This document shows, piece by piece, positions 27,660-45,015 of a DNA stretch of 45,015 bases. The position numbers and the translations under genes are program-made. Location: positions 1-45,015 of the forward strand of contig JACSDG010000050.1 in assembly GCA_015660855.1 (NCBI GenBank), read 5' to 3'. The notes beneath the pieces are model-generated. The model was not told the origin of the DNA and made no database searches. It was given only the letters and a program-made list of their open reading frames with translations. This DNA comes from Magnetococcales bacterium. Its GTDB lineage: Bacteria > Pseudomonadota > Magnetococcia > Magnetococcales > UBA8363. Position 1 is the stretch's first letter; every line of letters starts with the position of its first letter.

Positions 27660-29786
27660 ATGAACAAGAAACCGCTTTTTTATGTGGTGGATGACGATGC
27701 CATTACCCGGCTTACCCTGTGTCGGTTTCTGGAAAATCAGGGCTACGCTACGGTGCGACTGGAAAGTGGCCAGGCCGCTTTGGAGGAACTTGACCGGCGG
27801 CTGCCGGACATTATCCTTCTGGATGCCCGGATGCCCGGCCTGGATGGTTTTGCCACCTTGGCTGCAATCAAAGAAAAGGAGGGGGCGCAACGTATCCCGG
27901 TTTTGATGATTACCGGTCTGAACGATGATGAATCGGTGGACCGGGCGTACGAACAGGGAGCGGTTGATTTTATCACCAAGCCTATCCATTGGGCCATACT
28001 GCGCAATCGCGTCACCTATCTGCTCCGGGAAATCGACCATGAACGTCGGCTTTATCTGGCGGCGAGCGTTTTCGACAATACCACCGAAGGTATTGTGGTT
28101 ACCGACATGGACGCCACGATTCAGTCGGTCAATCCTGCATTTACCAGGATTACCGGGTATACCTCCTCCGAGGTTGTGGGAAGCAACATGCGCGTTTTGC
28201 GTTCGGGGCAGCACGACCGAAAATTTTATACCCAGTTTTGGGAAAGCTTGCAGACCACGGGGAAATGGCAGGGTGAATTTCAAAACCGGCACAAGGATGG
28301 TTCGATCATTTCGCAATGGGCGACCATCAGCAGCGTTATCGGTGTGGATGGCCAGGTGGAAAGGTATGTATGTTTATTTTCCGATCTGACGGCATTGAGG
28401 GAATCGGAAGCCAATTTTGCGCATCTTTCAGGGCATGATTCTCTCACAGATTTACCCAATCGCCACCTGTTTCAGGCACGATTGGCTTTGGCCCTGGCCG
28501 AGAATCGTGAGTCATCGTTGTTGCTGGGAGTCATGGTGTTGGACATCGACCGTTTCAAGGTGGTCAACGACACCCTGGGGCATGATAAAGGGGATCAATT
28601 ATTAATACGGGTCAGCCGCAGGTTGCGCAAGGCATTGCCCAGACAGGTCACCATGGGCCGATTGGGGGGTGACGCATTTGGGTTTATTCTGCCCGATTTG
28701 CAGCAATCCGCAGACGCTGCCAAAATTGCCCAGACCTTGTTGGATGCCCTGGGACAGCCTTTTGTTATCGACGGCAATGAGGCGATGGAATTTTTTGTCG
28801 GGGCCAGCGTGGGTATTGGTGTTTCGCCACTGGACGGGGTGGACGTGAAAACCTTGCTGCGCAATACCGACGCCGCCATGTATCATGCCAAGGAGCAGGG
28901 ACGCAACAATTTTCAGTTTTACAGAAACGATTTGAATATTGCCACCATGGCCCGCATGCTTATGGAAAGCAGTTTGCGCAGTGCCTTGGAAAAGGGAGAA
29001 TTTGTCCTGTACTACCAACCGCAGGTCGATGCGATCACAGGTGAATTGACGGGGGCGGAGGCACTGATCCGTTGGCAGCATCCTCTCCAGGGTATGATAG
29101 CCCCTGGCGAGTTCATACCGCTGGCGGAGGATACGGGTTTGATTATTCCCATTGGTCAATGGGCTTTGCAAACGGCGTGTGATCAGATGGCCCTTTGGTG
29201 TCAGAAAGGGTTGGCTCCGCTCCGGGTTGCCGTCAATCTTTCGGGTATTCAGTTCAAACAACCCGATTTTTCCGAGCGTGTCCTCCAGGTGGTGCGGGAG
29301 ACGGGGGTGGAGCCGCAATGGTTGGAATTGGAATTGACTGAAACCATCGCCATGGGTGATGTGGAAGAGACCTATGCCAAACTGAAAATTCTTTCCGAAG
29401 GCCGGATTCAGTTGGCCATTGATGATTTTGGCACGGGGTTTTCGTCATTGAGCTATTTGCGCCGCTTTCCCATCGACACCCTGAAGATTGACCGTTCTTT
29501 TGTACGCAACTGTGTTGAAGACGCCGATGATGCCACTATTGTGCGTACTTTTATTGGTCTGGCGCACAGCCTTGGGCTTTCTGTGGTGGCTGAAGGGGTG
29601 GAGACCAGGGAACAATGGGAGTTTCTCAAGCGTGAGGGATGTGATTGTATCCAGGGGTATTATTTTGGTCGCCCTTTGTCCCCGGAGGCCTTTGAAGACA
29701 TCATGAGGGAGATGCAGACCAAACGGTTATCGGCGGGGGAACACGCCAAAGGGAAGAGAAAAAAAATCCGGGCAAGAGGGGATTGA
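27660..29786 (+). CDS. Response regulator with REC, PAS, GGDEF and EAL domains
   Basis: A 708-residue soluble regulator. The receiver domain (about 5-120) has the acidic cluster D11-D13, phosphoacceptor D55 and K107. A PAS domain with PAC motif covers about 132-245. The GGDEF domain (about 255-420) carries GGDAF at 336-340, so the catalytic Glu is replaced and cyclase activity is doubtful. The EAL domain (about 440-685) keeps E467-A468-L469, DDFGTG (588-593), VAEGVET and QGYYFGRP, so c-di-GMP phosphodiesterase activity is likely. The start is the ATG at 27660, just after GGGGAGG. No cognate histidine kinase is adjacent. It may tune c-di-GMP for the nearby Pel locus, by inference from proximity only. 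Confidence 0.9.
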   Translation: MNKKPLFYVVDDDAITRLTLCRFLENQGYATVRLESGQAALEELDRRLPDIILLDARMPGLDGFATLAAIKEKEGAQRIPVLMITGLNDDESVDRAYEQGAVDFITKPIHWAILRNRVTYLLREIDHERRLYLAASVFDNTTEGIVVTDMDATIQSVNPAFTRITGYTSSEVVGSNMRVLRSGQHDRKFYTQFWESLQTTGKWQGEFQNRHKDGSIISQWATISSVIGVDGQVERYVCLFSDLTALRESEANFAHLSGHDSLTDLPNRHLFQARLALALAENRESSLLLGVMVLDIDRFKVVNDTLGHDKGDQLLIRVSRRLRKALPRQVTMGRLGGDAFGFILPDLQQSADAAKIAQTLLDALGQPFVIDGNEAMEFFVGASVGIGVSPLDGVDVKTLLRNTDAAMYHAKEQGRNNFQFYRNDLNIATMARMLMESSLRSALEKGEFVLYYQPQVDAITGELTGAEALIRWQHPLQGMIAPGEFIPLAEDTGLIIPIGQWALQTACDQMALWCQKGLAPLRVAVNLSGIQFKQPDFSERVLQVVRETGVEPQWLELELTETIAMGDVEETYAKLKILSEGRIQLAIDDFGTGFSSLSYLRRFPIDTLKIDRSFVRNCVEDADDATIVRTFIGLAHSLGLSVVAEGVETREQWEFLKREGCDCIQGYYFGRPLSPEAFEDIMREMQTKRLSAGEHAKGKRKKIRARGD

Positions 29787-29790
29787 AACG

Positions 29791-31035
29791 ATGATTCATG
29801 GTTTGGCAGGGTTGTTGGGTTTGACGGTGCTGGCTTGGCTGGCGAGTGAAGATCGCAAACGCTTTCCCTGGCGGGTGATGGCGATGGGGTTGGCGTTGCA
29901 GTTGGGGATAGGGATTGTTTTATTGAAATTTCCGCCGGTTCGTTCGGTTTTTCTGCTGCTCAACGATGGCGTGATTGCCCTGCAGAAGGCTATGGGGGAA
30001 GGGACATCTTTTGTTTTTGGATACCTTGGAGGTGCTCCGGCTCCCTTTGCCAAGGGGGAAACGGGGACACTGTTCATACTGGCGTTCCAGGCCCTGCCTT
30101 TGGTGCTTTTGGTCAGTGCCCTGTCGTCGTTGCTTTATTATTGGCGGGTGTTGCCGTGGATTGTGCAGGGGATTTCCAAATTATTGCAGAAAGGATTGGG
30201 GGTGGGAGGTGCGGTTGCCCTTGGGGCAGCCATGAACATATTTGTAGGAATGGTGGAAGCCCCTTTGTCCATTCGGCCCTACTTGGCCATCATGAGTCGG
30301 GCGGAATTGTTTGCGACGATGGTTTGCGGCATGGCCTCCATTGCGGGGACCATGATGGTTCTTTACGCATCCATCCTTGAGAGTGTGATTCCAGATGCTA
30401 TGGGTCATGTGCTGACCGCCTCCATTCTCAGTGCGCCAGCGGCATTGATGGTGTCTTTGATCATGGTGCCGCAGACAGGGCCTTCGACGGGGGGGGAGGA
30501 CATGCCGCCTTCGGAGGCGACGGGGGCCATGGATGCCATTACCCGAGGCACGGCGGAAGGGGTGACCTTATTAATAAACATTATTGCCATGTTGGTTGTG
30601 TTGGTTGCCTTGGTTTCGCTGGTCAATCAAGGGTTGGCCGCCATGCCGGAGGTGTATGGCGATCCGTTGACCTTGCAGCGGGCTTTGGGTTGGCTTATGG
30701 CCCCGGTGGCCTGGCTGATGGGGATTCCCTGGCATGAGGCGCAGGTGGCGGGATCGTTATTGGGGACAAAAACCATCCTTAATGAATTTATCGCCTACAT
30801 GGATTTGGCGAAGGTGCCCAGGGAACAACTGGGAGATGTAAGTCGGTTGATCATGATGTACGCTTTGTGCGGATTTGCCAACATTGGCAGCCTTGGCATC
30901 ATGATTGGAGGAATGGGGGCCATGGTTCCTGAACGCAAGAATGAGATTGTTGAATTGGGTTTGCGTTCCATCATCGCCGGGACCCTGGCCACTTGCATGA
31001 CCGGTGCTGTTGTGGGACTTGTTTTCAAATTTTAA
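29791..31035 (+). CDS. CNT-family concentrative nucleoside transporter
   Basis: A 414-residue polytopic inner-membrane protein of the NupC/CNT family, which imports nucleosides using H+ or Na+ gradients. Visible hallmarks are GTSFVFGYLGG, the AAMNIFVGMVEAPLSIRPYL block with the conserved xVEAP motif, SIAGTMMVLYASIL, and the C-terminal CGFANIGSLGIMIGGMG. The start is 4 bp after the preceding regulator stop. It is convergent with pelF. Confidence 0.93.
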   Translation: MIHGLAGLLGLTVLAWLASEDRKRFPWRVMAMGLALQLGIGIVLLKFPPVRSVFLLLNDGVIALQKAMGEGTSFVFGYLGGAPAPFAKGETGTLFILAFQALPLVLLVSALSSLLYYWRVLPWIVQGISKLLQKGLGVGGAVALGAAMNIFVGMVEAPLSIRPYLAIMSRAELFATMVCGMASIAGTMMVLYASILESVIPDAMGHVLTASILSAPAALMVSLIMVPQTGPSTGGEDMPPSEATGAMDAITRGTAEGVTLLINIIAMLVVLVALVSLVNQGLAAMPEVYGDPLTLQRALGWLMAPVAWLMGIPWHEAQVAGSLLGTKTILNEFIAYMDLAKVPREQLGDVSRLIMMYALCGFANIGSLGIMIGGMGAMVPERKNEIVELGLRSIIAGTLATCMTGAVVGLVFKF

Positions 31036-31103
31036 CGTACTTTCGTAATACATTGAAATTATGCTATATTTTGTGAAAAACAGTCTTGACAGTGGGGAGT
31101 CTT

Positions 31104-32609
31104 TCAACCATCCCGGAATCCCACATACAAATCCCGATAACGACGTTTCATGTCGTCTATGGCGTAATAAGCTTTGACCCTTTCCCGAATGGCGTTGGCG
31201 CAGCGGTCGTACCACTCCTGGTCGCTGAGCAGATGGATCAAGGCCCCAGCGGTTTCTCGCGGGTTGGAAACACGGGTGATGGCCCCAGCCGGACCCAGAT
31301 GCGGATTTTCGTCGGGATGGCCCAGGATCATCTCCCGGCAGCCGCCGACGTCGGTCGCCACCGTAGGGATACCTGCCGCCCCCGCCTCAAGGATTACAAG
31401 AGGTTGACCTTCGCTGATGCTGGTCAGGACGTTGATATCGATCTTGCCCATGTACTCTTTCAGGTTGACCCGGCCTGTGAAAGTAACCATATCTTCCAAG
31501 TGAAAATGTTCGATCAACCGCATGCACTCGTTGAAATACTCCTGGTCTTCCTCGGTTGGCCCCATCACCATGGCCTTGGCTACGGGAATGGCATCGCGCA
31601 GAATGGCGCAGGCGCGTAGATAGCTTTTAATGTCCTTGATCGGCACCACACGCCCGATGAGTGCCACCGTTGGCGGTCGGTTCGGCTCGCGCTGAATGGA
31701 GCCGAAATGCTCCAGATCGATACCGTTGGGGATGATCTGCATCTTGGTCGGATCGGCACCGTCGGCTTTCTGGAAAAGCTGGTTGCCCGAATGCAGAGTG
31801 ATGATCTGGGCACTGGCTTCGTAGCAAACCTTGGAATAGGCGTGAAAAGAATCAATCCAGAGGCTTTTGATGTCCTTCTCCGATCGGTCTACCTGAATGG
31901 AAATGCGCGGTTTTTCGTAGATCCAACTGGCCATGTTGATTTCAATGCGACGCTCATTGGTATAGATGCCGTGTTCGGTTACGAAAACCGGTTTGCCGCT
32001 TTCGATGTGGGCGCGGGTCAGAGCCAGCCCGGCGAAACCAGTGGAAACCGAGTGATACACCTTGGCTGGCGGCATGTTGCAGGTCAAAAGAATGAAAAGG
32101 TTGCCGGTGAGATAGCGCCAGGTCCAGAAAAAATCGGAAAAAGAGGCGTCTGGCAGGAGTTCCTGGTAAAAACGCATAAACAATCGCCAGGCGTGACGCG
32201 AGTTCATCAACTCTTCCCAGCCCAGATGATCCTGATAGGGACGGATCACCTCGCTTAGGACAGTCATGGACTCCAGGCTTGGCGACCTGTAAAAGGCGAT
32301 CAGTGCCTCTTCAAGTTTGTTGAAAAAGGGGCGGAGCCACATCCAGCGTTTTTTCCGCCGCGCCTGGAAGGGTGCCAGGTAGACATTCTGAATCGCCTGA
32401 AGATTTTTCGGCGGCTCATAGCGCATCTTCGTATCCGCTCCGGCGGGCAGGATGGCCAACAGGTTGAAGGAGACATCGGGAATGGAGCGGATGATGTCAT
32501 GCACCCAACTGGAGACGCCGCCGGGCACATAAGGATAGGTTCCCTCCACCATGATGCAGACATCGGCGGGGGGCGGATAGTCGGTAATCAGATTTTTGTG
32601 ATCGCTCAT
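31104..32609 (-). CDS. pelF: Pel polysaccharide glycosyltransferase PelF
   Basis: PelF is the cytosolic GT4 glycosyltransferase that makes the Pel polymer from a UDP-amino sugar. Of 501 residues, the N-terminus has the family motif ADVCIMVEGTYPYVPGGVSS. The GT-B C-terminal domain has the nucleotide-sugar site with SEGQPLVILEAGAAGIPTVA, carrying the E-x7-E pair. The ATG at 32609 overlaps the pelE stop (ATGA). An upstream start at 32627 is possible but unnecessary. The length matches Pseudomonas aeruginosa PelF (507 residues). Confidence 0.96.
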   Translation of the reverse strand: MSDHKNLITDYPPPADVCIMVEGTYPYVPGGVSSWVHDIIRSIPDVSFNLLAILPAGADTKMRYEPPKNLQAIQNVYLAPFQARRKKRWMWLRPFFNKLEEALIAFYRSPSLESMTVLSEVIRPYQDHLGWEELMNSRHAWRLFMRFYQELLPDASFSDFFWTWRYLTGNLFILLTCNMPPAKVYHSVSTGFAGLALTRAHIESGKPVFVTEHGIYTNERRIEINMASWIYEKPRISIQVDRSEKDIKSLWIDSFHAYSKVCYEASAQIITLHSGNQLFQKADGADPTKMQIIPNGIDLEHFGSIQREPNRPPTVALIGRVVPIKDIKSYLRACAILRDAIPVAKAMVMGPTEEDQEYFNECMRLIEHFHLEDMVTFTGRVNLKEYMGKIDINVLTSISEGQPLVILEAGAAGIPTVATDVGGCREMILGHPDENPHLGPAGAITRVSNPRETAGALIHLLSDQEWYDRCANAIRERVKAYYAIDDMKRRYRDLYVGFRDG

Positions 32610-33727
32610 CGGGTTGGCTCGCGCCATAGCTGGATTGCCTGGATGATGTTGACCGGAAACTCATCCAGTTTTTTCAACCGGTCGCCAAAATTGCGCGCCA
32701 TATCGTTCACCTGCCCATACTGTCTCAGGCGGAACAGAACATCCATGCGCCAAGCGATCATCTGCGTGGATGGCTCCTCCTTTTGCATCTCCGGTTCCAT
32801 CATCTCCAGGCACTCTTGGAGCCGCCCATTTTTCAAAAGAAGGCGGCATGCACGGGTAACCGCTTCGCTATTTTCAGGCCGAATGGCCAGATAACGACGA
32901 TAATAGTCGAGTGCCTTCTCCCGGCTATTGCGCGCATTCAGGTCATCGAGCAGGCCACAAAAAGCATATTCGTCGATATGACACGCCGTCTTCCACAACA
33001 GATCAGGATTTTCTGGATTTTTCTTCAATTCTCCCTCCAGTTCGATGGCCCGCTTGGTATAGTTGTTTTCCACATGCGATACGCCGGTGGCGGCCTGTAC
33101 GCGGATGGCATTGTCGGGCGAATTAACTGCTTCGAGCAGGATGGGGGCGAACTGGTGGCGAAAATAGCGGGTTACCAGGGCGATCATGGCTAGTTTTTGC
33201 CCCTGGTTGCCGAAGGCAAGAATATCCTGAAAGGGGGAAAGACCACCTGGGGCATCGGAGACGGCGATGCGCAGTGTATCGGCCAACTCTTCGGAATACT
33301 GTCGGTTTTCCTCCGGAAAGAGTTCGGCGTACCACTCCTCGAAAGGTCGGGCGTGACGACTGTAGTCCAGGAAGAGTAGAAACACCACCAGTACCCCGGC
33401 GAGGCCAACCAGGCCCAGAAAGAGGGTCGCACCCGCCAGCAGCAGAAAGAAGGCCTGGCCACACCGTTTGCCGAACCAGGGGGTCATGGCGACCAGGGCA
33501 AGGGCGGCGGACAGCAGAATGTGCATGGTCTGATAAGGTACAGGCCCCCAGTAGGGCGACAGACGGGTGCCGATGATGATCATCCAGAGGGTTTGGAGAT
33601 GGAACGCCATGGCCAAAACCCAGACCACGAGAAACTTGACCACGCAGGAGAAGGACCGGACGATGATCGGATTTTCCGGTTTCGGTGCGACCGCTGGATT
33701 GTTTTCGCTCTCGTCATCCTCTTTCAC
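32606..33727 (-). CDS. pelE: Pel synthesis membrane protein PelE
   Basis: A 373-residue inner-membrane protein. Hydrophobic segments are at about 25-55 and 65-120 (VVKFLVVWVLAMAFHLQTLWM, ILLSAALALVAM, FFLLLAGATLFLGLVGLAGVL). They are followed by a helical, TPR-like cytoplasmic domain. PelE interacts with PelD and PelG in the Pel synthase complex. The assignment rests on topology and on its place between pelD and pelF. It overlaps pelD by 14 bp and pelF by 4 bp. Confidence 0.88.
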   Translation of the reverse strand: MKEDDESENNPAVAPKPENPIIVRSFSCVVKFLVVWVLAMAFHLQTLWMIIIGTRLSPYWGPVPYQTMHILLSAALALVAMTPWFGKRCGQAFFLLLAGATLFLGLVGLAGVLVVFLLFLDYSRHARPFEEWYAELFPEENRQYSEELADTLRIAVSDAPGGLSPFQDILAFGNQGQKLAMIALVTRYFRHQFAPILLEAVNSPDNAIRVQAATGVSHVENNYTKRAIELEGELKKNPENPDLLWKTACHIDEYAFCGLLDDLNARNSREKALDYYRRYLAIRPENSEAVTRACRLLLKNGRLQECLEMMEPEMQKEEPSTQMIAWRMDVLFRLRQYGQVNDMARNFGDRLKKLDEFPVNIIQAIQLWREPTR

Positions 33728-35126
33728 TGCGCTCGCCCTCTGTATGACGGATGATCTGTGCGTTCATGGAAAAGGTGGCCAGCGGGGCGACCCAGGTGAT
33801 GCGCTGCTTGAGAATGCCTCCGACCTTCTCTTCCAGCCGGGGTAGCTGCTCTGGATCGGTGGCAGGCATGAACAACGCAAAGCGGATGCCGGAACCGTCA
33901 TAATCAAATACCATGTCGGTCTTGCGCATGGCGCGTGTCAGGGTTTCTCCGATCACCCCCGGCAGAAGGGCAGACTCCTGTTCCGACAGATCGTCGGGAT
34001 TGTCCAGGGTGATGATCAGCAGGATGACGTCGAATGCCAGCCGCCGCCCAAGAAGTCGGAACACCTCCATTTGGCGGCTCAGAAATCCCTTGGAGTAGAG
34101 TTTGTGGTCTTCATTGACCATTTGTTCGGTCTGGGCACGATGTAAGCGCACGGCCTTGTCGTAGGCGATGCCGATCCATTCGCAGAGCAGTTTGAAGTTT
34201 TCAACGCTACTGGTATTGAGTTCGGCGAATTCCAACCGTTCCACCTTGAGCATGCCAATGACGTTACCGCTTTTCAGGCTGATCAGGGGGCTGGCCATGA
34301 TTCCCTCGTCCATCAGAATGCCACGGTCCTCGGCCCTGGCCACCACCAGGGTCTTCTGATTGCCGATGACGGCGCGAAAGAGCGGAGAGTGGGGTTCAAA
34401 GGCGATGGAGTACTCTGCGTCCTCTTCCCATCCGTCACGGATCAGCACTTCCAACCCCTCCCTCTGCAAAAGAAAGATGGAGAAGGATTTCGGGTCAAGC
34501 ACCATGCGAATCAGCTCGCGCGCCCCTTTGAGGATGCTTTCGGTGTCGTGGCCTTCCATGATTTGGGCCATCTTGAAGTAGGAGATCATGGTCTCGGTTT
34601 GACCCGCCACCTGGGTTTCCAGACGATCTTTGACCCGATGCATGCGCACGAAGGCCTGAGTAATGGCTTCTTCGCGTTCCTGGGCCTCAATCAGACTTTT
34701 GCGCAGAAAATTGCGGTCGCGGATGTGGCGCAGTCGCAGCTCCCCCAGAACGATGGCCGTGACCAGCCAGAAGGTGGGAAGATAGGAGATGGCATCGATT
34801 CGGTCGAAAAGATTTTCGCCGAAGACTTGCCGATCAAAATTTTCCGACAGGTAGAACAGGGCAGAAAGGAACGTGGCCAGCAGCCCCTCCCAACGACCAT
34901 ACTGGCAACTCATGAGCAGGATGATGATCCAATAGGGATGGGGGTCAACGCCCCTGAAACGATCCGCCTGACCGAGATTGAGATCAATGGCCACCGCTAC
35001 CATGAAAAAGATTGAAATTTCTACCAGGGCACTGATCCGCAGGCCCAGGAAGGTTTTGGAAGGGGGAAATGTGAGGCGCGGGAGGGTGGATTGGCTGGGC
35101 TGGGCTTCAGAGGGTTCGATACGCAT
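33714..35126 (-). CDS. pelD: c-di-GMP receptor PelD
   Basis: A 470-residue inner-membrane protein. Several N-terminal helices (about 25-125) and a coiled linker lead to a GAF domain (about 180-320) and a degenerate GGDEF domain (about 325-460). PelD activates Pel synthesis when it binds c-di-GMP at the inhibitory-site motif RxxD. Here this is R401-K-T-D404 in AMRKTDMVFDYDG, while the GGDEF motif itself is not recognisable. The ATG at 35126 is chosen; a TTG five codons upstream is possible. The protein is expected to act in a complex with PelE, PelF and PelG. Confidence 0.93.
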   Translation of the reverse strand: MRIEPSEAQPSQSTLPRLTFPPSKTFLGLRISALVEISIFFMVAVAIDLNLGQADRFRGVDPHPYWIIILLMSCQYGRWEGLLATFLSALFYLSENFDRQVFGENLFDRIDAISYLPTFWLVTAIVLGELRLRHIRDRNFLRKSLIEAQEREEAITQAFVRMHRVKDRLETQVAGQTETMISYFKMAQIMEGHDTESILKGARELIRMVLDPKSFSIFLLQREGLEVLIRDGWEEDAEYSIAFEPHSPLFRAVIGNQKTLVVARAEDRGILMDEGIMASPLISLKSGNVIGMLKVERLEFAELNTSSVENFKLLCEWIGIAYDKAVRLHRAQTEQMVNEDHKLYSKGFLSRQMEVFRLLGRRLAFDVILLIITLDNPDDLSEQESALLPGVIGETLTRAMRKTDMVFDYDGSGIRFALFMPATDPEQLPRLEEKVGGILKQRITWVAPLATFSMNAQIIRHTEGERSERG

Positions 35127-35192
35127 GACGGGCCAAACCAATCCTTCTGAAAAAAACGCATCACCGGGGGCGCGACGCCAGCCGTGTGGCGG

Positions 35193-35831
35193 CTATTGCG
35201 ACGTTTGCGGTGCTGTGGCGGGCAGCAAACCGGCGACCAGGCGGTGCGCTACCCGTTTGGCGGCGGAAACCAGGGTCTCCCCTGGGCCGACCACGGTGCC
35301 GCGTTGCGACAGGCTGCCCCGCCACAAAATGCGTCCGTCGGAGACGCGGGTCAGGACCAGGATCATTCCCGCCACCGGGTCGGATCGCACCCCGTGTTGA
35401 TAGGAAAACTCTGGCACGCTGCCGCTCATGATGGCGTCCACCTCCAGGCGGCGGCCTATGTCACTCAGGTTCAGTCGGTTGTAGGCCCTATCCAGTTCGA
35501 CGCCGTCGGTTTCAAACAGACGGCGCACCGTCTCTTCGTTTGGTTGAGTGTGTGCCCCCTGGGCATAAAGCTCGGTGGAGACCAACTGGGCGGCGATTAC
35601 CCCGGCATTGGGCGTCGGGCTGAAATTTTCAAAGGGGATGACGGCGATGGAGAGTTGGCGCGCATCCCCTAACTCCGGATGGGCATAAAGCGAGACCCCG
35701 GCGGCAGAGTCCAAAACGGCGCAGCCCCCCAAAAAGTGAGACAGACACATCGCCAAAAACACCTGGAGGCAGGCCACCAAAGGACGTCCGGCAGAGAAAC
35801 TATGGGCAGGATGACAACAAATCACGCGCAT
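35193..35831 (-). CDS. pelC: Outer-membrane lipoprotein PelC
   Basis: PelC forms a dodecameric periplasmic ring below the PelB pore and funnels the polymer to it. This 212-residue precursor has a signal sequence ending in the lipobox LGGC (C37). The mature domain has LSIAVIPFENFSPTP, the typical PelC/TolB-N-like strand, and the C-terminus has RILWRGSLSQRGTVVG. The ATG at 35831 is preceded by AGGA at suitable spacing; the open frame continues another 20 codons upstream without support. It is the first gene of the leftward pelC-D-E-F unit. Confidence 0.88.
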   Translation of the reverse strand: MRVICCHPAHSFSAGRPLVACLQVFLAMCLSHFLGGCAVLDSAAGVSLYAHPELGDARQLSIAVIPFENFSPTPNAGVIAAQLVSTELYAQGAHTQPNEETVRRLFETDGVELDRAYNRLNLSDIGRRLEVDAIMSGSVPEFSYQHGVRSDPVAGMILVLTRVSDGRILWRGSLSQRGTVVGPGETLVSAAKRVAHRLVAGLLPATAPQTSQ

Positions 35832-36065
35832 TCCATTCCTATCGGTTGAAGAGGACAACGATCTGGCGTCTCTCACGATCCAACCCGGCACCGCAGCCCA
35901 ATTCGGGAACGGGCGGCTGAATCGTAACGCTATTTGCGGAAAAAATCTATAGCCCCCCTTCCAACCAACCGATCTAAGGCGGGATAAGCCCCAATTGGTT
36001 TCCCCAACTCAAGGGAATCCCGGCGCCGGTTGTTATCCGGAGGCTCCCGTTAAACGAAAGAGACC
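35832..36065. promoter_or_regulatory. Shared intergenic region of the divergent pel operons
   Basis: This 234-bp region separates pelC (leftward) from pelG (rightward) and must carry both promoters and any shared operator. I see no confident -35/-10 pair. AT-richer sequence occurs around 35930-35955. No open frame of natural composition is present. Confidence 0.55.
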
Positions 36066-37445
36066 ATGGCTGGAATTGGTTTTGTACTGCGCAAACTGAC
36101 CTACAAGGATGACCTCATGGGCGTCCTGGCCGGGTTTGGCTACTCTTCGCTCATCGCAACCGGTCCGTGGATCTTCACCATCATCGCCTTGAGCGGCTCC
36201 TCCGCTCTGCTGACCGCCTTCACCACGCCGGAACAAAAGTTGGCCTTCCAGTCGGTGGTGGTCTACAACTTTTCCTTTTCGCTGGTACTGACCGGCCCCA
36301 TATTTATGGTGGTGACCCGTTTTCTGGCCGACCAGATCTACAAAAAAAGGTCCGATGCCATTCCGGGAACCCTTCTGGGCGGCATGCTTATCCTCTTTGC
36401 GACCCAATATCCCCTGGTGGCGTGGTTCTACCTCTATTATATCCAGGCCGATTTGTCATTCCAGATTTTTGGCCTTATCAACTACGCCCTGATCTCCGGC
36501 ATCTGGCTGGCTTCGGTTTTCATTTCGGCGCTCAAGGCCTATCAGACGGTGGTGCGTACATTTCTGGCGGGCATGTTGATCGGCATGGCCGCCAACGTCC
36601 TTTTGGGTCTCAAGTTCGGTGAAGTCGGCATGCTTTTTGGCTTCAACATCGGTCTGGCTTTCATCCTTTTTTCCATGATTGCGCGCATCTTCGCCGAATA
36701 TCCCCACGGCATATCCGGTTCTTTCCTGTTTTTAGGCTATTTCCGCAAATATTGGGATCTGGCCCTGGGTGGACTGGTAATCAACGCCGCCGCCTGGTCC
36801 GATAAATGGGTGATGTGGTTTTCGGACCAGAGCGAAACCGCCGCCGGAGGCTTTGTCTCGGCTCCGATTTATGACAGTGCCATGTTTATGGCCTATCTGA
36901 CGGGCATTCCAGCCCTCTCGGTTTTTTTATTTAGCATGGAAACCGATTTTTTTGAGCACTATCTCAACTTTTACCGCTCCCTGGGACAGCATCTGCCTCT
37001 GTCAACCATCCAGAAGCGTTATGACGAGATGACCGCTTCGATCTACGCCAGCAGTTTGAACTATCTGGTGCTCCAGGGCGGTATCGCGCTGGTGACGATC
37101 CTGCTGGCACCACGCATGTTTAAGCTCCTGGACATGGATCTGCTCTCCCTGGGCATGTTCCGTTTCGGTGTGCTGGGGGCGTTTTTTCATCTGATGGTCC
37201 AGTTTCTCGGCATTTTTCTCTCTTATTTCGATTTTCGCCGCGACATCCTTTTTATCAGCTGCTTCTTTCTGGTCACCAACGGTTTGTTCACCTGGGTGTT
37301 TATGAAGCAGGGGTTCGCCTTCTACGGCTTCGGCTACTTTCTGGCCAGTCTGACCACTTTCGCTGTTGCCTACATCATCACCTTTTTCAAGGTCAAGGAA
37401 CTGCTTTACCAGACCTTCGTGGTCAAGAACAGGTCGCCGCAATGA
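36066..37445 (+). CDS. pelG: Pel polysaccharide inner-membrane transporter PelG
   Basis: A 459-residue polytopic protein with about twelve helices. It belongs to a Wzx-like exporter family and forms the inner-membrane conduit for Pel with PelD and PelE. The N-terminus MAGIGFVLRKLTYKDDLMG and the following YSSLIATGPWIFTIIAL are characteristic. The length equals that of P. aeruginosa PelG (456 residues). It starts the rightward pel operon and overlaps the sensor gene by 4 bp. Confidence 0.95.
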   Translation: MAGIGFVLRKLTYKDDLMGVLAGFGYSSLIATGPWIFTIIALSGSSALLTAFTTPEQKLAFQSVVVYNFSFSLVLTGPIFMVVTRFLADQIYKKRSDAIPGTLLGGMLILFATQYPLVAWFYLYYIQADLSFQIFGLINYALISGIWLASVFISALKAYQTVVRTFLAGMLIGMAANVLLGLKFGEVGMLFGFNIGLAFILFSMIARIFAEYPHGISGSFLFLGYFRKYWDLALGGLVINAAAWSDKWVMWFSDQSETAAGGFVSAPIYDSAMFMAYLTGIPALSVFLFSMETDFFEHYLNFYRSLGQHLPLSTIQKRYDEMTASIYASSLNYLVLQGGIALVTILLAPRMFKLLDMDLLSLGMFRFGVLGAFFHLMVQFLGIFLSYFDFRRDILFISCFFLVTNGLFTWVFMKQGFAFYGFGYFLASLTTFAVAYIITFFKVKELLYQTFVVKNRSPQ

Positions 37446-39193
37446 ATGCGCATGTGGGTCAAGAACAGCCGGAAAAACCGCGTTTATCCGCACGCAGGCG
37501 CGGGAGGTTTCTGCGCTCTCTGGGTAGCAAGGTGCTGATTCTGACCATCCTGGTAACCTTCATCAACGACTGCGGCATGGTGATCTTTTACGCCAGGCAG
37601 CAGGAGGAGTCGATCCTGGAGGATCACCACCAAAGTCTGCGCAAACTGACCGAGTCCATCGCCAAGGGATTGGAGGCGTTGATGATCGACGGCTACGCCG
37701 ATGTCGCCCGCAACTATGTGGAGATGATTAAGACTCTGCCTTATCTGGATAATTTCTACATCCTGCGGACCAATGGTATGGAGGCCTTTCTGGACAACGA
37801 GACCATTGACCGGGTCAACCGGCGACTGGGAGAGGAAGAGTTTCTACCCCGGGAGTTGGAAATTAAGCGGCGCAAGCTGGCCGAAAACGACCCCTTGCTG
37901 CGGCAGATGTTGGAGTCGCGCAGGTCGATCTCCTATGAGACTGGAGAGGGCAAAGAGGCGGTGCTGACCCTGATCGTGCCGATTCTCAATGGCGAACGCT
38001 GCCGGAAATGCCATGGATCGGAATTCGCCGTGCGCGGTGTGGTCACCATCAGCACCTCACTCAAAACGGTGCGCCAGGAGATCGCAAAAACGCGACTGCG
38101 CGCCATCGTTATCTTGTTTATCGTCCTGGTTGGCGGCAGTGGACTGATCTATCTGCTGCTGCGTTATTCCATCGTCAAGCCGATCCGCTTTCTTTCGGAC
38201 AGCATGGAGCGTGTTGCCCATGGGGATTATCACTCCGAGGTACCGGTCAAGGGGGGGGATGAACTGGCCCGCATTGCCCGCACCTTCAACGAGATGACGC
38301 AGCAGATTCGCCTGAGTCAGGCCGAGCAAATCAAGGAAAAGAACAAACTGACCAGCATCATCAACGGTGCCATGGAGGGCATCATCGTTACCGACGCCGA
38401 AGACCGGATTATGATCGTCAATCCCCTGGCGGAAAAACTGTTGGGTAAAAGCCGCAGGCAGATCGTACAGGATGGTTTTTCCCAAGCCTTCGACGATCCG
38501 GATCTGCTGCGGAAAGCCATTCGGCCTCATACCGAAGAGTCGCCGCCGCAGATCGTCATCTACAAACGCCGAACGCTTCAGGTCTCCCTGACCACCATCC
38601 ACAACGAACGGGAAGAAAAACTGGGTTCCACGGCCATGATCCGCGACATCACCGAGGAGAAACGGCTAGAGGATAAGCTTCGGGCCATGGCCTATACGGA
38701 CATGCTCACCGGGCTGAATAACCGGCGTTGGCTGCATGAAATCCTGGGCAAGGAGTTCAAACGGGTACGCCGGCATGAAGGCCGGTTGGCACTGCTGTGC
38801 TACGGCATCGTCGACTACGAGAATTTTTGCCGCAACTACGGCCAGGGCATGGGCAACAGTGCCGTCATGCGGGTGGGAAGTGCCTCTCTGGACGCCTTTC
38901 GCGAGTCGGACCATTGCTGCCGGGAAGAGGACGCAACCTTCTGTCTGATTATGCCGGAAACCAACGCCGACGGTGCCATTGAAGCCGCCCAACGGCTTCA
39001 GAAGCAAGCTCAGGAAACGCCAGAGGGCATTCCCTTCACCATTCGTTTCGGCGTGGCTGCTTATCCCGACAATCTGACCTACAACCCGGAGGAACTCTGG
39101 CGTCTGGCCCGCAAAGCCCTGGCCGAGGCAATGGCGAGCAAAGATGATCTTTTCCTGGTGGCCCCGCCGACGGAGAAACCGAATGTGGAATAG
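37442..39193 (+). CDS. Membrane sensor with CxxCH haem motif, HAMP, PAS and degenerate GGDEF
   Basis: A 583-residue protein not among the canonical pel genes. A first helix (about 25-48) and a second (about 216-240) enclose a periplasmic domain of about 165 residues that holds a single c-type haem motif, C187-R-K-C190-H191. Next come a HAMP domain (about 241-293), a PAS domain (about 305-410, IINGAMEGIIVTDAEDRIMIVNP) and a GGDEF-like domain (about 415-575). In the last, GGDEF is replaced by EDATF at 496-500, so cyclase activity is very unlikely. It overlaps pelG by 4 bp and the hydrolase gene by 11 bp, placing it firmly in the operon. A haem-based redox or gas sensor that controls Pel assembly is my inference. 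Confidence 0.85.
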   Translation: MNAHVGQEQPEKPRLSARRRGRFLRSLGSKVLILTILVTFINDCGMVIFYARQQEESILEDHHQSLRKLTESIAKGLEALMIDGYADVARNYVEMIKTLPYLDNFYILRTNGMEAFLDNETIDRVNRRLGEEEFLPRELEIKRRKLAENDPLLRQMLESRRSISYETGEGKEAVLTLIVPILNGERCRKCHGSEFAVRGVVTISTSLKTVRQEIAKTRLRAIVILFIVLVGGSGLIYLLLRYSIVKPIRFLSDSMERVAHGDYHSEVPVKGGDELARIARTFNEMTQQIRLSQAEQIKEKNKLTSIINGAMEGIIVTDAEDRIMIVNPLAEKLLGKSRRQIVQDGFSQAFDDPDLLRKAIRPHTEESPPQIVIYKRRTLQVSLTTIHNEREEKLGSTAMIRDITEEKRLEDKLRAMAYTDMLTGLNNRRWLHEILGKEFKRVRRHEGRLALLCYGIVDYENFCRNYGQGMGNSAVMRVGSASLDAFRESDHCCREEDATFCLIMPETNADGAIEAAQRLQKQAQETPEGIPFTIRFGVAAYPDNLTYNPEELWRLARKALAEAMASKDDLFLVAPPTEKPNVE

Positions 39194-40046
39194 GTCTGGC
39201 ATCTCTTGCTCTCTGACGGCACTGTTGGCGGCTCTGTGGTTCATGGCCGTACCCTCCCGGATCCGGGCGGAATCGGCACCGCTGTTGGTCTTTTACGGCC
39301 CTTCGGCCCCGCTCGAAGCACTTTTGCCGTTCGACCTGCTGGTCTTTGATGGTGCCGCGCACCCCCCCATCGAATCACTGACCGAACGGGACAAAACGAC
39401 GCTGGGATATCTGAGTTTGGGCGAGGTGAAAAACCACCACCCTTATTTCAAGGCACTGGAACGGGAACGGTTGCTGCTTGAGGAGAACGTCAACGGAAAG
39501 GCAAGCTTCTTCATCGATCTGCGCGACCGACGCTGGACGCAACGGGTCATCGAGGAGTTGGTCCCGCGCCTGATCCGCAAAGGGTTTGACGGCATCTTTC
39601 TCGATACCCTGGACACTCCCCCTTTTTTGGAAAAGCGCGAGCCTGAAAAGTTCAAGGGGATGCGCGAAGCCGCCATTAATCTGGTCAAGACCATCCGTCT
39701 GCACTATCCGCAACAGAAGATCATGATGAACCGGGGCTATGCCCTGCTGCCGGAGGTTGGACCGCATATCGATATGTTGATGGCGGAGTCCTTGCGTTCC
39801 AGCCATGATTTCGCCAACAATCGCTATTACCGGGTGGATGAGGCGCAATACCGAACCATGGTTGACGTCTTGCAGAAAACTGCCAAACGGTTTGTGAACC
39901 TGAAGATCTACACCATGGACTATTGGGATACCGATGATGGCCCAGGCGTCGCGGCCATTTACCGGGAAGAGCGTGCCAACGGATTCCTGCCGTATGTTTC
40001 CACCATCAAACTGGACCAGATCACGCCGCCTCCCCAGGAGCAATAA
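39183..40046 (+). CDS. pelA: PelA-type glycoside hydrolase (separate protein)
   Basis: A 287-residue exported protein (signal peptide about 1-29, ending RIRA) that corresponds to the N-terminal hydrolase domain of PelA, related to endo-alpha-1,4-polygalactosaminidases. Motifs GFDGIFLDTLDT (D141) and LMAESLRSS (E202) match the positions of the catalytic Asp and Glu known from PelA. PelA of P. aeruginosa fuses this hydrolase to a deacetylase; here it stands alone. The ATG at 39183 overlaps the sensor stop by 11 bp. Confidence 0.88.
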   Translation: MWNRSGISCSLTALLAALWFMAVPSRIRAESAPLLVFYGPSAPLEALLPFDLLVFDGAAHPPIESLTERDKTTLGYLSLGEVKNHHPYFKALERERLLLEENVNGKASFFIDLRDRRWTQRVIEELVPRLIRKGFDGIFLDTLDTPPFLEKREPEKFKGMREAAINLVKTIRLHYPQQKIMMNRGYALLPEVGPHIDMLMAESLRSSHDFANNRYYRVDEAQYRTMVDVLQKTAKRFVNLKIYTMDYWDTDDGPGVAAIYREERANGFLPYVSTIKLDQITPPPQEQ

Positions 40047-40138
40047 GCCCGATCCATCTGGAAACATGGATGTTTCACCGTTTCAGGGTTATTGGGCCAG
40101 ACCGGCCTGTGAAAATCTCTATGTAAAAGGCTCGTTGC

Positions 40139-42487
40139 ATGCAATTTTGGTGGTTTCCTGCAATTTTTTTCCTGCTTGCGCTCGCAAGCCCGCCTGTTCA
40201 GGCGGCAGCGCAAGATAGTTTTCGCCCCGAACCGCGTGTGATCCTCGCCTTTTACGACGGACGCGACCACCAATCCTACTGGCTGCAACGTCCGCACAGG
40301 CTGGCGGAAACCCCCTTGAATCATCTGGGCCTGATCCTCCGCCATCGGGACATTCGTGCGCCCCTGCCGGATCTTCGGGAAATGGCGGATGTTCGAGGTG
40401 TTTTGCTCTGGATGTCCAGTGCCGCCACGCCCGATCCGGCGCGTTTCATTCACTGGTGCGTCCAGACCATGAAAGCGGGAATACGCCTGGTCCTGATGGG
40501 CTCTCCCCCCTTCGGGCAGAACGACAAGGGGGTGATTACCGAACCGGGAACCCTGCGCCCTTTCTGGCGCACCCTGGGGTTGGAACCCCGCTTTGACTGG
40601 ATCCGGTTCACGCACAAAACCCGGCTGTTGGATTCGGACTCCCGCATCATGGACTTTGAGCGCGGCTTCTCCGGCTTGCTACCACCATTTGAAACCCTCA
40701 AGCGCCGCGATCCACGCATGACCGTTCATTTGACTGGACGCCAGTTCAACGATCCCAAGAGCGACGCCGTTCTGGTGACCACCAGCCCGCACGGCGGTTA
40801 TGTCGCCGATGGCTATGAGCTCTACATCGCTCCGGGGGAAGATTTCATCCAGTGGCGCATCGATCCTTTCGCATTTTTTGCCCTGGCCTTCGACGCCTGG
40901 AATCTGCCCAAACCCGACGCCACCGTCCTTTCTGGCCGCCGCATTTTCTACAGTCACATCGACGGCGACGGCTGGCGCAACATTTCGCAGGTGGAGGGGT
41001 ACCGGCAGAAGAAAAAGCTCTCTGCCGAGGTCGTCCTGGAAGAGATTCTCAAGCCCTATCCCGATTTTCCCAGCACCGTCGCTCCTATTGTTGCCGACAT
41101 CGACGGACGACTCGACCCGAATCCGGACATTCAGAAGATCGCCCGGGAAATCTTTCTGCTGCCCCATGTCGAGGCGGGCAATCACACTTATACCCATCCG
41201 CTCTTCTGGCAGTTTTTCGAGGCGTACCAGGCCGACAAGGAGGCCCCCTATCTTTGGCTCTATCCGCAACCTCTGGAGGGGGACTATCTCAAGCGGCTCG
41301 CCTCTCTGTTCGACCTGGACGCCCGCAAGGAGAAGGTGCAGATGGATACCGGCGTTTGGAAGCGGGAGTTGAATAATGCGATAAAAAGCAAGGAAAAGAA
41401 ACCAAACATTGTCATGGACTACCGCACCCCGCGCGTCTACCGTTCCGGCGATTTTCGCCTGGAACAGGAGTTCGGGGCGGCCAACGCCGTCATCGAACGC
41501 CTTACGCCGCCTGGAAAGAGAGTCCAGGTGGTCCAGTGGAGTGGCGACACCCTGCCCTTCGAGGCGGCCATCGCCGCCGCCCGGGCGGAGGGCATGACCA
41601 ACATCAACGGTGGCGATTCCCGTTTCGACAAGCAATATCCCTCCATTGCCTGGGTCGCGCCTTTGGGACGACAGGTGGGCGACCAGTGGCAAACCTATGC
41701 CTCCAACTCCAACGAGAATACCTATACCGAATTGTGGACCGCCAATTTTTTCGGTTTCAAACAGTTGATCCGCACCATACGCAATACCGGTCATCCCCTG
41801 CTGCTCAAGCCGTTCAACCTCTACTACCATATGTATTCCGGCGAGCGGGTCTCCAGCCTCAACGCCCTGCGCCACAACCTGGAATACGCCCGCGCCCTTC
41901 CGTTGACGCCGGTGGCTACCAGCCATTTTGCCCGTATTGTGGAAGGGACCGTGTCTGCCCGCCTGGAGCGCGGTGACCCGGAGGGTTGGCGCATCCTCGA
42001 ACGTGGTGCCATGCAGACAATCCGCTTTGACCGCGCCCTCTTTCAGGCCGTGGACTTGATTCGTTCCCAGGGGGTCATCGGCCAGAAACATTACCAGGGC
42101 AGCCTTTACGTCTCTCTGGAGGCGGACCATCCGGCTCCGGTGATCATTCTGAAGGATCATCCGCAAAGCGGCCAGCGACCCCAGGCGACCATCCCCTATC
42201 TGGTGGAGTCGCGCTGGTTGGTCCGGGGGGTCGCGCACCCTTCCGCCGCTGGGGTCGTCTTCCGGGTCCAGGGATTTGGCCCCGGCCAGATGGTTTGGCA
42301 GAGCCCATGGCGCGGCGGCTTCATCGCCTTATTGCGCGACGATGACGGACGCCTTTTGGAAAAGCACCAAGGGATGATCGAGGCCGACGGGCTGATCCGG
42401 TTCACCTTTTCCGCCTCGGCCCTGGACGGTGCCGCCGCCGAACTGCGCTTTCAGCCGGATGTGGCGGAGGTTGCGGCACCGTCATGA
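40139..42487 (+). CDS. pelA: PelA-type polysaccharide deacetylase (separate protein)
   Basis: A 782-residue exported protein (signal peptide about 1-23) that corresponds to the remaining part of PelA. The CE-type deacetylase core shows FYSHIDGDGW with D275 and EAGNHTYTHP with H349 and H353, forming the metal-binding D-H-H set. The preceding 260 residues resemble the PelA reductase-like region, and the C-terminal 150 residues form a beta-rich module. Deacetylation in the periplasm makes mature Pel cationic. A 92-bp gap separates it from the hydrolase gene, and pelB begins inside its stop codon. Confidence 0.9.
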   Translation: MQFWWFPAIFFLLALASPPVQAAAQDSFRPEPRVILAFYDGRDHQSYWLQRPHRLAETPLNHLGLILRHRDIRAPLPDLREMADVRGVLLWMSSAATPDPARFIHWCVQTMKAGIRLVLMGSPPFGQNDKGVITEPGTLRPFWRTLGLEPRFDWIRFTHKTRLLDSDSRIMDFERGFSGLLPPFETLKRRDPRMTVHLTGRQFNDPKSDAVLVTTSPHGGYVADGYELYIAPGEDFIQWRIDPFAFFALAFDAWNLPKPDATVLSGRRIFYSHIDGDGWRNISQVEGYRQKKKLSAEVVLEEILKPYPDFPSTVAPIVADIDGRLDPNPDIQKIAREIFLLPHVEAGNHTYTHPLFWQFFEAYQADKEAPYLWLYPQPLEGDYLKRLASLFDLDARKEKVQMDTGVWKRELNNAIKSKEKKPNIVMDYRTPRVYRSGDFRLEQEFGAANAVIERLTPPGKRVQVVQWSGDTLPFEAAIAAARAEGMTNINGGDSRFDKQYPSIAWVAPLGRQVGDQWQTYASNSNENTYTELWTANFFGFKQLIRTIRNTGHPLLLKPFNLYYHMYSGERVSSLNALRHNLEYARALPLTPVATSHFARIVEGTVSARLERGDPEGWRILERGAMQTIRFDRALFQAVDLIRSQGVIGQKHYQGSLYVSLEADHPAPVIILKDHPQSGQRPQATIPYLVESRWLVRGVAHPSAAGVVFRVQGFGPGQMVWQSPWRGGFIALLRDDDGRLLEKHQGMIEADGLIRFTFSASALDGAAAELRFQPDVAEVAAPS

Positions 42488-45015
42488 AATCCGATCTCTT
42501 CATCCTGGCTTTGTTGACGCTTCTCGGCCTGGCGGCTGGGGTGGTCATTCTGCCCAGCCATGACGAACTGGCTTTGATGCATATGAGTGCCGGGCGTTTC
42601 GAGCAGGCGCGGCGGCACATGGACGACTCCCTGGCAGAGGCTCCGGCCACGGTCCACACCCTGCTGCCCATGCTGGAGCTGCGTTTCCAGCGCGGCGATG
42701 TGGAAGGTGCCATCGCGGCCCTGGAGCAGTTTGTTGCGGCCAACCCCGACATTCTGGAATCGCGCACACTCCTGGGTCGGTATTACCGGGTTGCGCAACG
42801 GCCTATGGACGAATTGCGCAACCTGGAGCAGATCCGCAACCGCCATCCTTCGCTCAAGGTGCTGGAAGAGCTGGTCAGCCGTTACGATCTGCTGGCCATG
42901 TACGACCAGGAGATCGACGTTCTCTTCCAACTGGTGCGGGAGTATCCGCAGCATCCGCAACATTTCATCCGACTGGCGGAACTTCTGGTTACGCGCGAAA
43001 GATGGCTCGACGCCGTTGACGTGATCCACGCCCTGCGCGGTGCCCATCCGGAATCAATCGACGCCGATATTATCCTGCTGCTGGTAGACACCCTGATTTT
43101 GTCGGGCAATCCGAAGGAGGCGCTGGCGGAAAGCCGGGAGTGGCTTCAGGGCCGGTTCGACCCCGAATACGCCGCCATGTTCGGCGATTTGCTCCATTAC
43201 GGCGTTGGCCCGGAGCTGGCTTGGAGTCTGTTGGAGCCATGGCTGGGCTCGGCCTTGCGCTCCAACGAGCTGTTGGCCAAATGGATTGAACTGGCCGGAG
43301 TCATGAACAAACAGGAACGGGTGCTGCCAACCCTGGTCAAGCGCTATCGGCAGGACAAGCTGCCTCCCAAAGTATGGCCGCAACTGTCGGAACTGGCACT
43401 CAAAAATGGCAACATCGCCCTGGCACAGGAGGTGGCCGCCCGTCTGGAGAGTCCCGCCTTTCCCGGTTGGCTCAAGGATTATTTCATCGACCGAGCCTTG
43501 GCCGACCAAAACCGCGCCATAGCGGATTTTATTGCTCCGCACCTGGATGCGACCCACTTGACCCATATGCCGCTCAAGGCGGCCTCCCTGGCCTGGCTGC
43601 GTGAGGAGAAAACAGAGGCCACGCGCCTGCTCGATTGGGCCTGGAAGCAGGGTTATTTTGAACTGGAAGATCTCAATTTGGGTATCTCCCTTCTGACCCG
43701 CATGGGCGAACGCAAAAAAGCCATGGAGTGGGCGCGCAAGGCGGTCATGGATCCGAGTGCCTCCGAATGGCTGATCAGCGATCTGGCGCGCTTTTTCATC
43801 GACGAAAAACAGCCCGAAGAGGGGTTGGCTCTCTTTTCCCATCTGAAAGGGCGTCGCGACTTACCTGCGGTGCGCCAGGGATGGGCACTGCTGGCGACCA
43901 TGACCTCGGATCGGCATAACGATCAGGTCATCGCCTGGCTCGATCAAGAACCGGGCCTTCTGCAACCTTTCCTGTCCGAAATGGCCTACGGTGCTTTCAA
44001 TTATAGAAATTTGAAGGTCGCCGCTGCCGCTGCCGAGAAGCTCCATCGACTGACCGGCAATGATGCCGACCAGCGTCTGCGGGCGGAAATTCTGCTGGCG
44101 TTGGGCAAGCCGGAGGAAGCCATGAAGCTTGCCCGCGTCGATGATGCAGGTTCCAATACCGACGCACGCCGTTTTTATGGCCGCATCGTCCGGGAAGCCT
44201 GGGAAAAGGGTTTTCCGGTCAAGCCGGAGATGCGGCGACTTCTCGTTCTGAGCCGTCATTCGCCTGACCGCTACGCCCTGGCTACCGACGCCGCCGACCT
44301 TGGCTGGATGGCTCTGGAGCTTGGGGAGCGTCAAATGGCCCAGGACAGTTTTTTCAAGATGGCCCGAAAGGCCGGTCCCGACGACCCTTCCGTTTTGCAA
44401 CTGCTGCACTTGTGGGGTCCGACGCCGCCGTCCGAGGGGTTGGCTTGGCTTGTCGGGCGCGCCAGAGAGGATATTCCGAAAAACCGGGCACTGTGGCTGC
44501 AACGCCTGTTGGATGTCGATCGCCCGCAGTCGGTCATCCAACTGGGCCGGGCCTTTATTGAGGAGCGCGGCCCGGATTCTAAGATTGAAGAGCAGATCAT
44601 GGAGGCTCTCCTGCTTCAGGGGGAAACCCAGGAAGCGCAAAGGTTTTTGATTCGGCAGATTGAGGCGGCGCACGCGTCGTCGGAGCAACTGCGCGCCTTG
44701 GGAAAACAGGCTTCTGCCCTCGATATGGGTGCCGCCTCGCTCCTGGCCTATGAAGCACTGCTCAAACAGGATCCGTATGATCTGCATGCGTTGCGGACTC
44801 TGGCGGCGGCGGATTTTTTCAACCATCGGTGGGACCGGTCGGAGACGCGCTATCGGCGTTTGCTCTCCCGAAACGCGGGGGAGCCGTTGGATTTTCTGCG
44901 CCTGGGAGAGGCCATCATCAATCAGGGTCGGGAATCCCATGGCCAGGCCTATCTGCGCCAAGCCCTGGGTCTTCTGGAGAAACAAAATCCCAAAGGTTTC
45001 GATGAGCGTGCCATG
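42484..45015 (+). CDS. pelB: PelB TPR scaffold and outer-membrane pore (3' end missing)
   Basis: The frame from the ATG at 42484 is open to the last base (844 codons, no stop). One hydrophobic N-terminal segment (about 4-22) is followed by many degenerate TPR helices (for example SAGRFEQARRHMDDSLAE, LALGKPEEAMKLAR, AADFFNHRWDRSETRYRRLL). PelB of P. aeruginosa is about 1190 residues, with a long periplasmic TPR region that binds PelA and a C-terminal beta barrel. The barrel would lie beyond this window. It overlaps the deacetylase gene by 4 bp (ATGA). Confidence 0.88.
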   Translation, partial: MKSDLFILALLTLLGLAAGVVILPSHDELALMHMSAGRFEQARRHMDDSLAEAPATVHTLLPMLELRFQRGDVEGAIAALEQFVAANPDILESRTLLGRYYRVAQRPMDELRNLEQIRNRHPSLKVLEELVSRYDLLAMYDQEIDVLFQLVREYPQHPQHFIRLAELLVTRERWLDAVDVIHALRGAHPESIDADIILLLVDTLILSGNPKEALAESREWLQGRFDPEYAAMFGDLLHYGVGPELAWSLLEPWLGSALRSNELLAKWIELAGVMNKQERVLPTLVKRYRQDKLPPKVWPQLSELALKNGNIALAQEVAARLESPAFPGWLKDYFIDRALADQNRAIADFIAPHLDATHLTHMPLKAASLAWLREEKTEATRLLDWAWKQGYFELEDLNLGISLLTRMGERKKAMEWARKAVMDPSASEWLISDLARFFIDEKQPEEGLALFSHLKGRRDLPAVRQGWALLATMTSDRHNDQVIAWLDQEPGLLQPFLSEMAYGAFNYRNLKVAAAAAEKLHRLTGNDADQRLRAEILLALGKPEEAMKLARVDDAGSNTDARRFYGRIVREAWEKGFPVKPEMRRLLVLSRHSPDRYALATDAADLGWMALELGERQMAQDSFFKMARKAGPDDPSVLQLLHLWGPTPPSEGLAWLVGRAREDIPKNRALWLQRLLDVDRPQSVIQLGRAFIEERGPDSKIEEQIMEALLLQGETQEAQRFLIRQIEAAHASSEQLRALGKQASALDMGAASLLAYEALLKQDPYDLHALRTLAAADFFNHRWDRSETRYRRLLSRNAGEPLDFLRLGEAIINQGRESHGQAYLRQALGLLEKQNPKGFDERAM

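Follow-up and report, generated by a model that had tools for sequence, protein, structure and literature searches.

The window analyzed here, the whole stretch of 45,015 nucleotides, belongs to the draft genome (238 contigs; completeness 97.8%) of a Magnetococcales bacterium, a relative of the magnetotactic cocci, and carries the genes for Pel biosynthesis in two divergent transcription units. The unit on the minus strand consists of a pelC-like lipoprotein gene (35193–35891), pelD (33714–35141), pelE (32606–33727) and the glycosyltransferase gene pelF (31104–32627), the product of which matches the NCBIfam PelF equivalog NF038011 at 450 bits (cut-off 100). The unit on the plus strand begins with pelG (36066–37445; PF16933, 421 bits) and continues with a sensor gene, two pelA genes and a gene for a pelB-like TPR protein (42484–45015, continuing past the window end), which shows TPR matches and is homologous to the pelB ORFs of the order. 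The first pelA gene (39183–40046; start placed by its ribosome binding site) encodes the GH114-like hydrolase part (PF03537, 3.6e-16) and the second (40139–42487) the deacetylase-like part, which had no match in the Pfam search and aligned at 707.7 bits with the corresponding ORF of another pel locus (L075 of G029). PelB, PelC, PelD and PelE were assigned by homology to pel operons elsewhere in the order; PelD combines a GAF domain with a degenerate GGDEF domain in which the RxxD motif is kept (R406/D409), and a PDB sequence search with it gave no match. As pelF, pelG, pelD, pelE and pelA/B/C occur together, which is the gene set expected of a Pel biosynthetic operon, the cluster is, by its predicted products, a genuine Pel cluster. 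Its layout (31104–42487), with divergent units and with hydrolase and deacetylase encoded by separate pelA genes, sets it apart: elsewhere in the order, the pel loci examined each run on one strand. For B. cereus, pelA has likewise been reported as two genes. The same genome encodes a second PelG (G000:C130:12879–14231) and a second PelF (G000:C202:15216–16031), which indicates that it has two Pel systems.

The sensor gene (37442–39193, plus strand) encodes 583 amino acids without internal stops (P0001). Its start lies inside the pelG stop (overlap of 4 bp, ATGA), and its last 11 bp are shared with the gene for the PelA hydrolase part, provided that the latter gene starts at the ATG at 39183, which is preceded by GGAG, and not where the mechanically called ORF begins (39144). 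Between pelG, the sensor gene and pelA, no convincing promoter or terminator was found; the region from 35700 to 42700 contains one promoter-like site (2.8 expected) and six terminator-like sites (8.6 expected), and an Rfam search of 29000–45015 for a c-di-GMP riboswitch or any other RNA yielded none at E 1. The original prediction had described both overlaps and assigned the gene to the pel transcript, which is supported for the pelG-side unit. P0001 is composed of a transmembrane helix (TM), a periplasmic haem-c Cache domain, a second TM, a HAMP domain (residues 239–290; 38156–38311), a PAS domain (residues 304–403; 38351–38650) and a GGDEF-like domain (residues 417–566; 38690–39139), the Pfam matches being 9e-8 (Mcp40H-20_sensor), 2.8e-14 (HAMP), 2.1e-7 (PAS) and 3e-23 (GGDEF; 82.8 bits). 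Translation and Pfam thus agree with the architecture first proposed, including its CxxCH and EDATF motifs. P0001 is not a PelD, as its domain order differs and a separate PelD is encoded at the locus. Single-sequence structure prediction of the full-length protein gave a pLDDT of 36, too low to use.

The periplasmic domain (approximately residues 51–218; 37592–38095) belongs to the Mcp40H-20 family (PF21563), which was recognized in 24/24 family members examined, with P0001 above the gathering cut-off. A profile built from the 24 sensor domains matched the structures 3b47 (8.5e-14; assigned to its gene according to PMC12889525) and 3b42 (5.8e-11; assigned via its residue numbering). By these matches, the sensor is of the type known from GSU0582 and GSU0935, two Geobacter chemoreceptors with haem-c sensor domains (PMC8396549), for which the name sCache_heme was introduced in a 2026 preprint (PMC12889525). 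The haem-attachment motif CRKCH (residues 187–191; 38000–38014), on the conservation of which the original prediction hinged, is present as CxxCH in all 59 correctly read relatives, and so is a methionine at the position of M81 (37682–37684), the predicted distal haem ligand. In the alignment, M81 pairs with Met60 of GSU0935, numbered 26 in the 3b42 chain (the haem histidine being chain residue 110, or His144, hence an offset of 34). The segment around Met60 aligns weakly with 3b42, at 8 bits, and better with 3b47, at 16 bits; the register is adopted because the whole domain matches and M81 is invariant. All near-invariant family positions are retained in the sensor (24/24) and in the TM2-HAMP segment (6/6). 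CcmF, a gene for cytochrome c maturation, was found in the genome, and P0001 is expected to be loaded with haem.

As for the signal, published relatives provide the guidance. In GSU0935, Met60 is the distal ligand; oxidation frees it from the haem, and both NO and CO can take its place. NO binds in both oxidation states and replaces Met60 in the reduced form (PMC8396549). A HAMP-linked member of the family binds NO tightly without forming a stable oxy complex, and stand-alone members appear to be redox-related (PMC12889525). Because of these relatives, NO or redox is our best guess for the input of P0001, and stable binding of O2 is unlikely; of the redox, NO or oxygen input originally put forward, the first two are thus retained. 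A search of the draft genome for cytochrome cd1 nitrite reductase (NirS) found none and so did not point to an internal source of NO. That P0001 regulates Pel by sensing periplasmic redox state through a Met-on/Met-off haem, and not NO, with O2 acting only as an oxidant of the haem, would be compatible with any of the regulatory outputs considered below and has, in our estimation, somewhat less than an even chance. GSU0582 and GSU0935 change spin state and ligation with redox (−156 and −251 mV; PMC8396549), M81 is conserved, and genes for the haem protein EB_dh, which adjoin several paralogues, hint at redox partners; however, the HAMP-linked relative showed the properties of an NO sensor (PMC12889525), and sequence does not separate NO from redox.

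The output domain has fared differently. Where 59/59 correctly read relatives have the signature GGEEF, P0001 has EDATF (residues 496–500; 38927–38941), and it has also lost a metal ligand (D455G), two guanine contacts (N463C, D472N) and the phosphate-contact lysine (K564M). It therefore lacks what marks an active diguanylate cyclase, that is, GG(D/E)EF together with the metal and guanine ligands. None of eight catalytic positions is retained, compared with 31 of the 49 other near-invariant GGDEF positions (Fisher p ~1e-3; 31/57 overall), so that the loss is concentrated in the catalytic center, whereas the domain fold, to judge by the 82.8-bit match, persists. The domain is accordingly predicted to be catalytically dead, as had been claimed on the signature. 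The inhibitory site, in contrast to the catalytic one, is complete: P0001 has RESD (38900–38911), an RxxD with R487 and D490, followed by a downstream arginine, R518 (38993–38995), as seen in degenerate-GGDEF receptors. These residues we take to correspond to R359, D362 and R390 of PleD. Retention of all three has a chance of ~0.16 given 31/57 overall and is by itself weak evidence. The PAS and GGDEF domains have diverged faster than the sensor; the ratio of GGDEF to sensor identity is 0.95 for P0001 versus 1.31–1.75 in 23 relatives (z = −4.6), which indicates normal constraint on the sensor but not on the output domain.

PF21563 sensors occur in 45/48 genomes of the order, and three full-length active paralogues of P0001 (C100, C131 and C8) are encoded in its own genome, C100 (40% identity to P0001) with GGEEF intact. 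In a tree of 64 rows, 60 of them valid, P0001 falls within the clade of active cyclases (100/97), on a branch of length 1.62 (median 0.2) that leaves its position uncertain in detail. Four apparent relatives without GGEEF (L162, L174, L181 and L190) were left out of all counts, being most likely wrong-frame ORFs; they also lack CxxCH and group apart from the rest on a branch of extreme length. P0001 is thus placed by phylogeny as a fast-evolving derivative of the active haem-sensor cyclases common in the order. The active paralogue C100 (L043:5508–14594) sits in another cluster of exopolysaccharide type, with a polysaccharide deacetylase and EB_dh upstream and a Wzx-like flippase and a GT2 protein downstream; the remaining contexts of paralogues and relatives that were examined did not look like exopolysaccharide clusters. 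Genes for the haem-binding EB_dh (PF09459) recur beside haem-c sensor cyclases (L043, L049, L052 and L056), and EB_dh is a possible redox partner of the sensor. On contig C8, a c-type cytochrome gene (L045:4913–5647) starts within ~20 bp after the haem-sensor cyclase.

In 58 other pel loci (14 from the order and 44 from elsewhere, read up to 10 kb to each side where the contig permitted), no GGDEF protein was found inside the operon (0/58), which agrees with the original assertion, made for Pseudomonas, that canonical pel operons have no such protein; five of the loci have one at more than 2.6 kb from pelG. The sensor recurs in none of the 58, so that P0001 does not define a pel-linked orthologous group. 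The haem-sensor family as a whole occurs mostly away from pel loci, and a scan of GTDB with peptide patterns, which finds close relatives only, returned distant matches of at most 36% identity. At the level of the family, these results partly go against the original prediction, and no second pel-linked orthologue emerged. Beyond the order, 44 genomes with PelG were searched for PF21563, and no match exceeded the cut-off, so that the pairing cannot be sampled there. Within the genus, genome G007 carries the gene for a haem-c methyl-accepting chemotaxis protein (MCP) with a zinc-binding CZB domain (L071:6865–9267), which begins ~150 bp downstream of pelG and has the same orientation. Its sensor is of a different subfamily, its output is not homologous to that of P0001, and a promoter-like site lies between pelG and the MCP gene. 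Haem-c sensors thus directly follow pelG at two of 15 pel loci of the order, where 0.013 would be expected (p ~8e-5, or ~1e-3 when four neighboring positions are allowed; the statistic is post hoc). This second, independent haem-c neighbor of pelG hints at selection for coupling.

By analogy with PelD, BcsE and YdaK, all of them receptors with degenerate GGDEF domains, we propose that P0001 is a haem-gated, catalytically silent c-di-GMP receptor that adjusts Pel production, a reading to which we give about an even chance. A haem-c sensor diguanylate cyclase would have been duplicated, relocated and neofunctionalized. Its periplasmic Cache domain would hold a covalent haem c ligated by His191 and Met81; NO or a redox change would displace the methionine and move the signaling path formed by TM2, HAMP and PAS; and the GGDEF domain, which would neither bind GTP nor synthesize c-di-GMP, would have retained the I-site. 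At the inner membrane, such a receptor could adjust the Pel synthase complex beside PelD, as BcsE stands beside BcsA in cellulose operons and YdaK serves the yda exopolysaccharide operon. c-di-GMP binding, PelD or the synthase as the target, and the sign of the effect are points that we infer. Against the receptor model, P0001 is a single instance for which no pel-linked orthologue was found, a second pel locus is encoded in the genome, and PelD of this locus retains its own RxxD, so that a second receptor is not required. That intact RxxD also led us to reject P0001 as a substitute for a broken PelD. A more specific arrangement, in which P0001 and PelD pair via their degenerate GGDEF domains and haem state and c-di-GMP are read jointly at the synthase, independently of c-di-GMP synthesis, is tentative and rather improbable.

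The main rival to the receptor model is a scaffold acting by contact alone, in which the dead GGDEF domain docks on PelD, on a Pel membrane subunit or on an active paralogue without binding c-di-GMP. The loss of the active site from a retained fold, the three active paralogues in the genome, which share the architecture of P0001 and are possible partners, and the overlap of the gene with pelG would all suit such a protein. The original prediction had likewise envisaged a signal passed by protein contact instead of c-di-GMP synthesis; the absence of synthesis stands, but the intact I-site had been overlooked, and it makes c-di-GMP binding a live and probably better option than contact alone. 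The I-site residues were kept (3/3) while the catalytic ones were lost, and the contact of YdaK with its partner cyclase itself requires an intact I-site (PMC7064775). We therefore regard the scaffold as rather unlikely. Next comes decay: P0001 would have arisen by duplication of a sensor cyclase, ended up in the operon as a hitchhiker and now be on the way to losing its function, with no role in Pel synthesis. The branch length, the faster divergence of PAS and GGDEF, and the lack of both an orthologue elsewhere and a pel association of the family are what decay would produce; it is hard to reconcile with an intact ORF of 583 codons tightly overlapped on both sides, with 30/30 near-invariant positions kept in sensor and HAMP, and with losses concentrated on the catalytic face, and we consider it less probable still. 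That the domain is a still active diguanylate cyclase is very improbable: its Pfam match exceeds the gathering score, but positions contacting metal, guanine and phosphate are substituted besides the signature.

NO and redox are classic switches of biofilm formation, usually held to act by altering the c-di-GMP level. If the receptor model is true, a haem sensor joined to a dead cyclase within an exopolysaccharide operon would link haem chemistry in the periplasm directly to the machinery that makes the polymer. It would also show an active sensor cyclase becoming a receptor, with the sensor preserved, the catalytic face lost and the I-site kept, and the active sister cyclases of the same genome allow comparison with P0001.

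P0001 resembles several known systems. With GSU0582 and GSU0935 (DUF3365/Tll0287 family), it shares the sensor family, the CxxCH motif, a methionine at the axial Met60 position and transmission through TM and HAMP; known sCache_heme members, however, have MCP, kinase or GGDEF/EAL outputs, whereas P0001 has a dead GGDEF domain within a pel operon. PelD of P. aeruginosa and B. cereus is, like P0001, a membrane protein of the pel operon with a degenerate GGDEF domain and RxxD, and binds c-di-GMP through this I-site (R367, D370 and R402; PMC2170427, PMC7112168), but it contains a GAF domain and lacks the haem sensor, HAMP and PAS, and the locus of P0001 encodes a separate PelD. YdaK (B. subtilis ydaJKLMN), whose receptor role has been demonstrated (PMC7064775), is a membrane-anchored degenerate GGDEF protein with an I-site from a putative exopolysaccharide operon; unlike P0001, it has four TM helices and no haem sensor, and it serves a Gram-positive exopolysaccharide of unknown structure. 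Enterobacterial BcsE, encoded in cellulose operons, where BcsA is the other c-di-GMP receptor (PMC7439463), resembles P0001 as proposed here in being an extra degenerate-GGDEF receptor in a synthase-dependent system that already has one, but it is cytosolic, carries a degenerate REC-GGDEF tandem without a periplasmic sensor, and acts on cellulose rather than Pel. The active haem-sensor cyclases of the order (e.g., C100) have a domain order identical to that of P0001, which branches among them, and differ from it in their intact GGEEF and their location outside pel operons. Sensor and output type are thus both known, and it is their combination and its location, here in a single instance in one draft genome, that are new.
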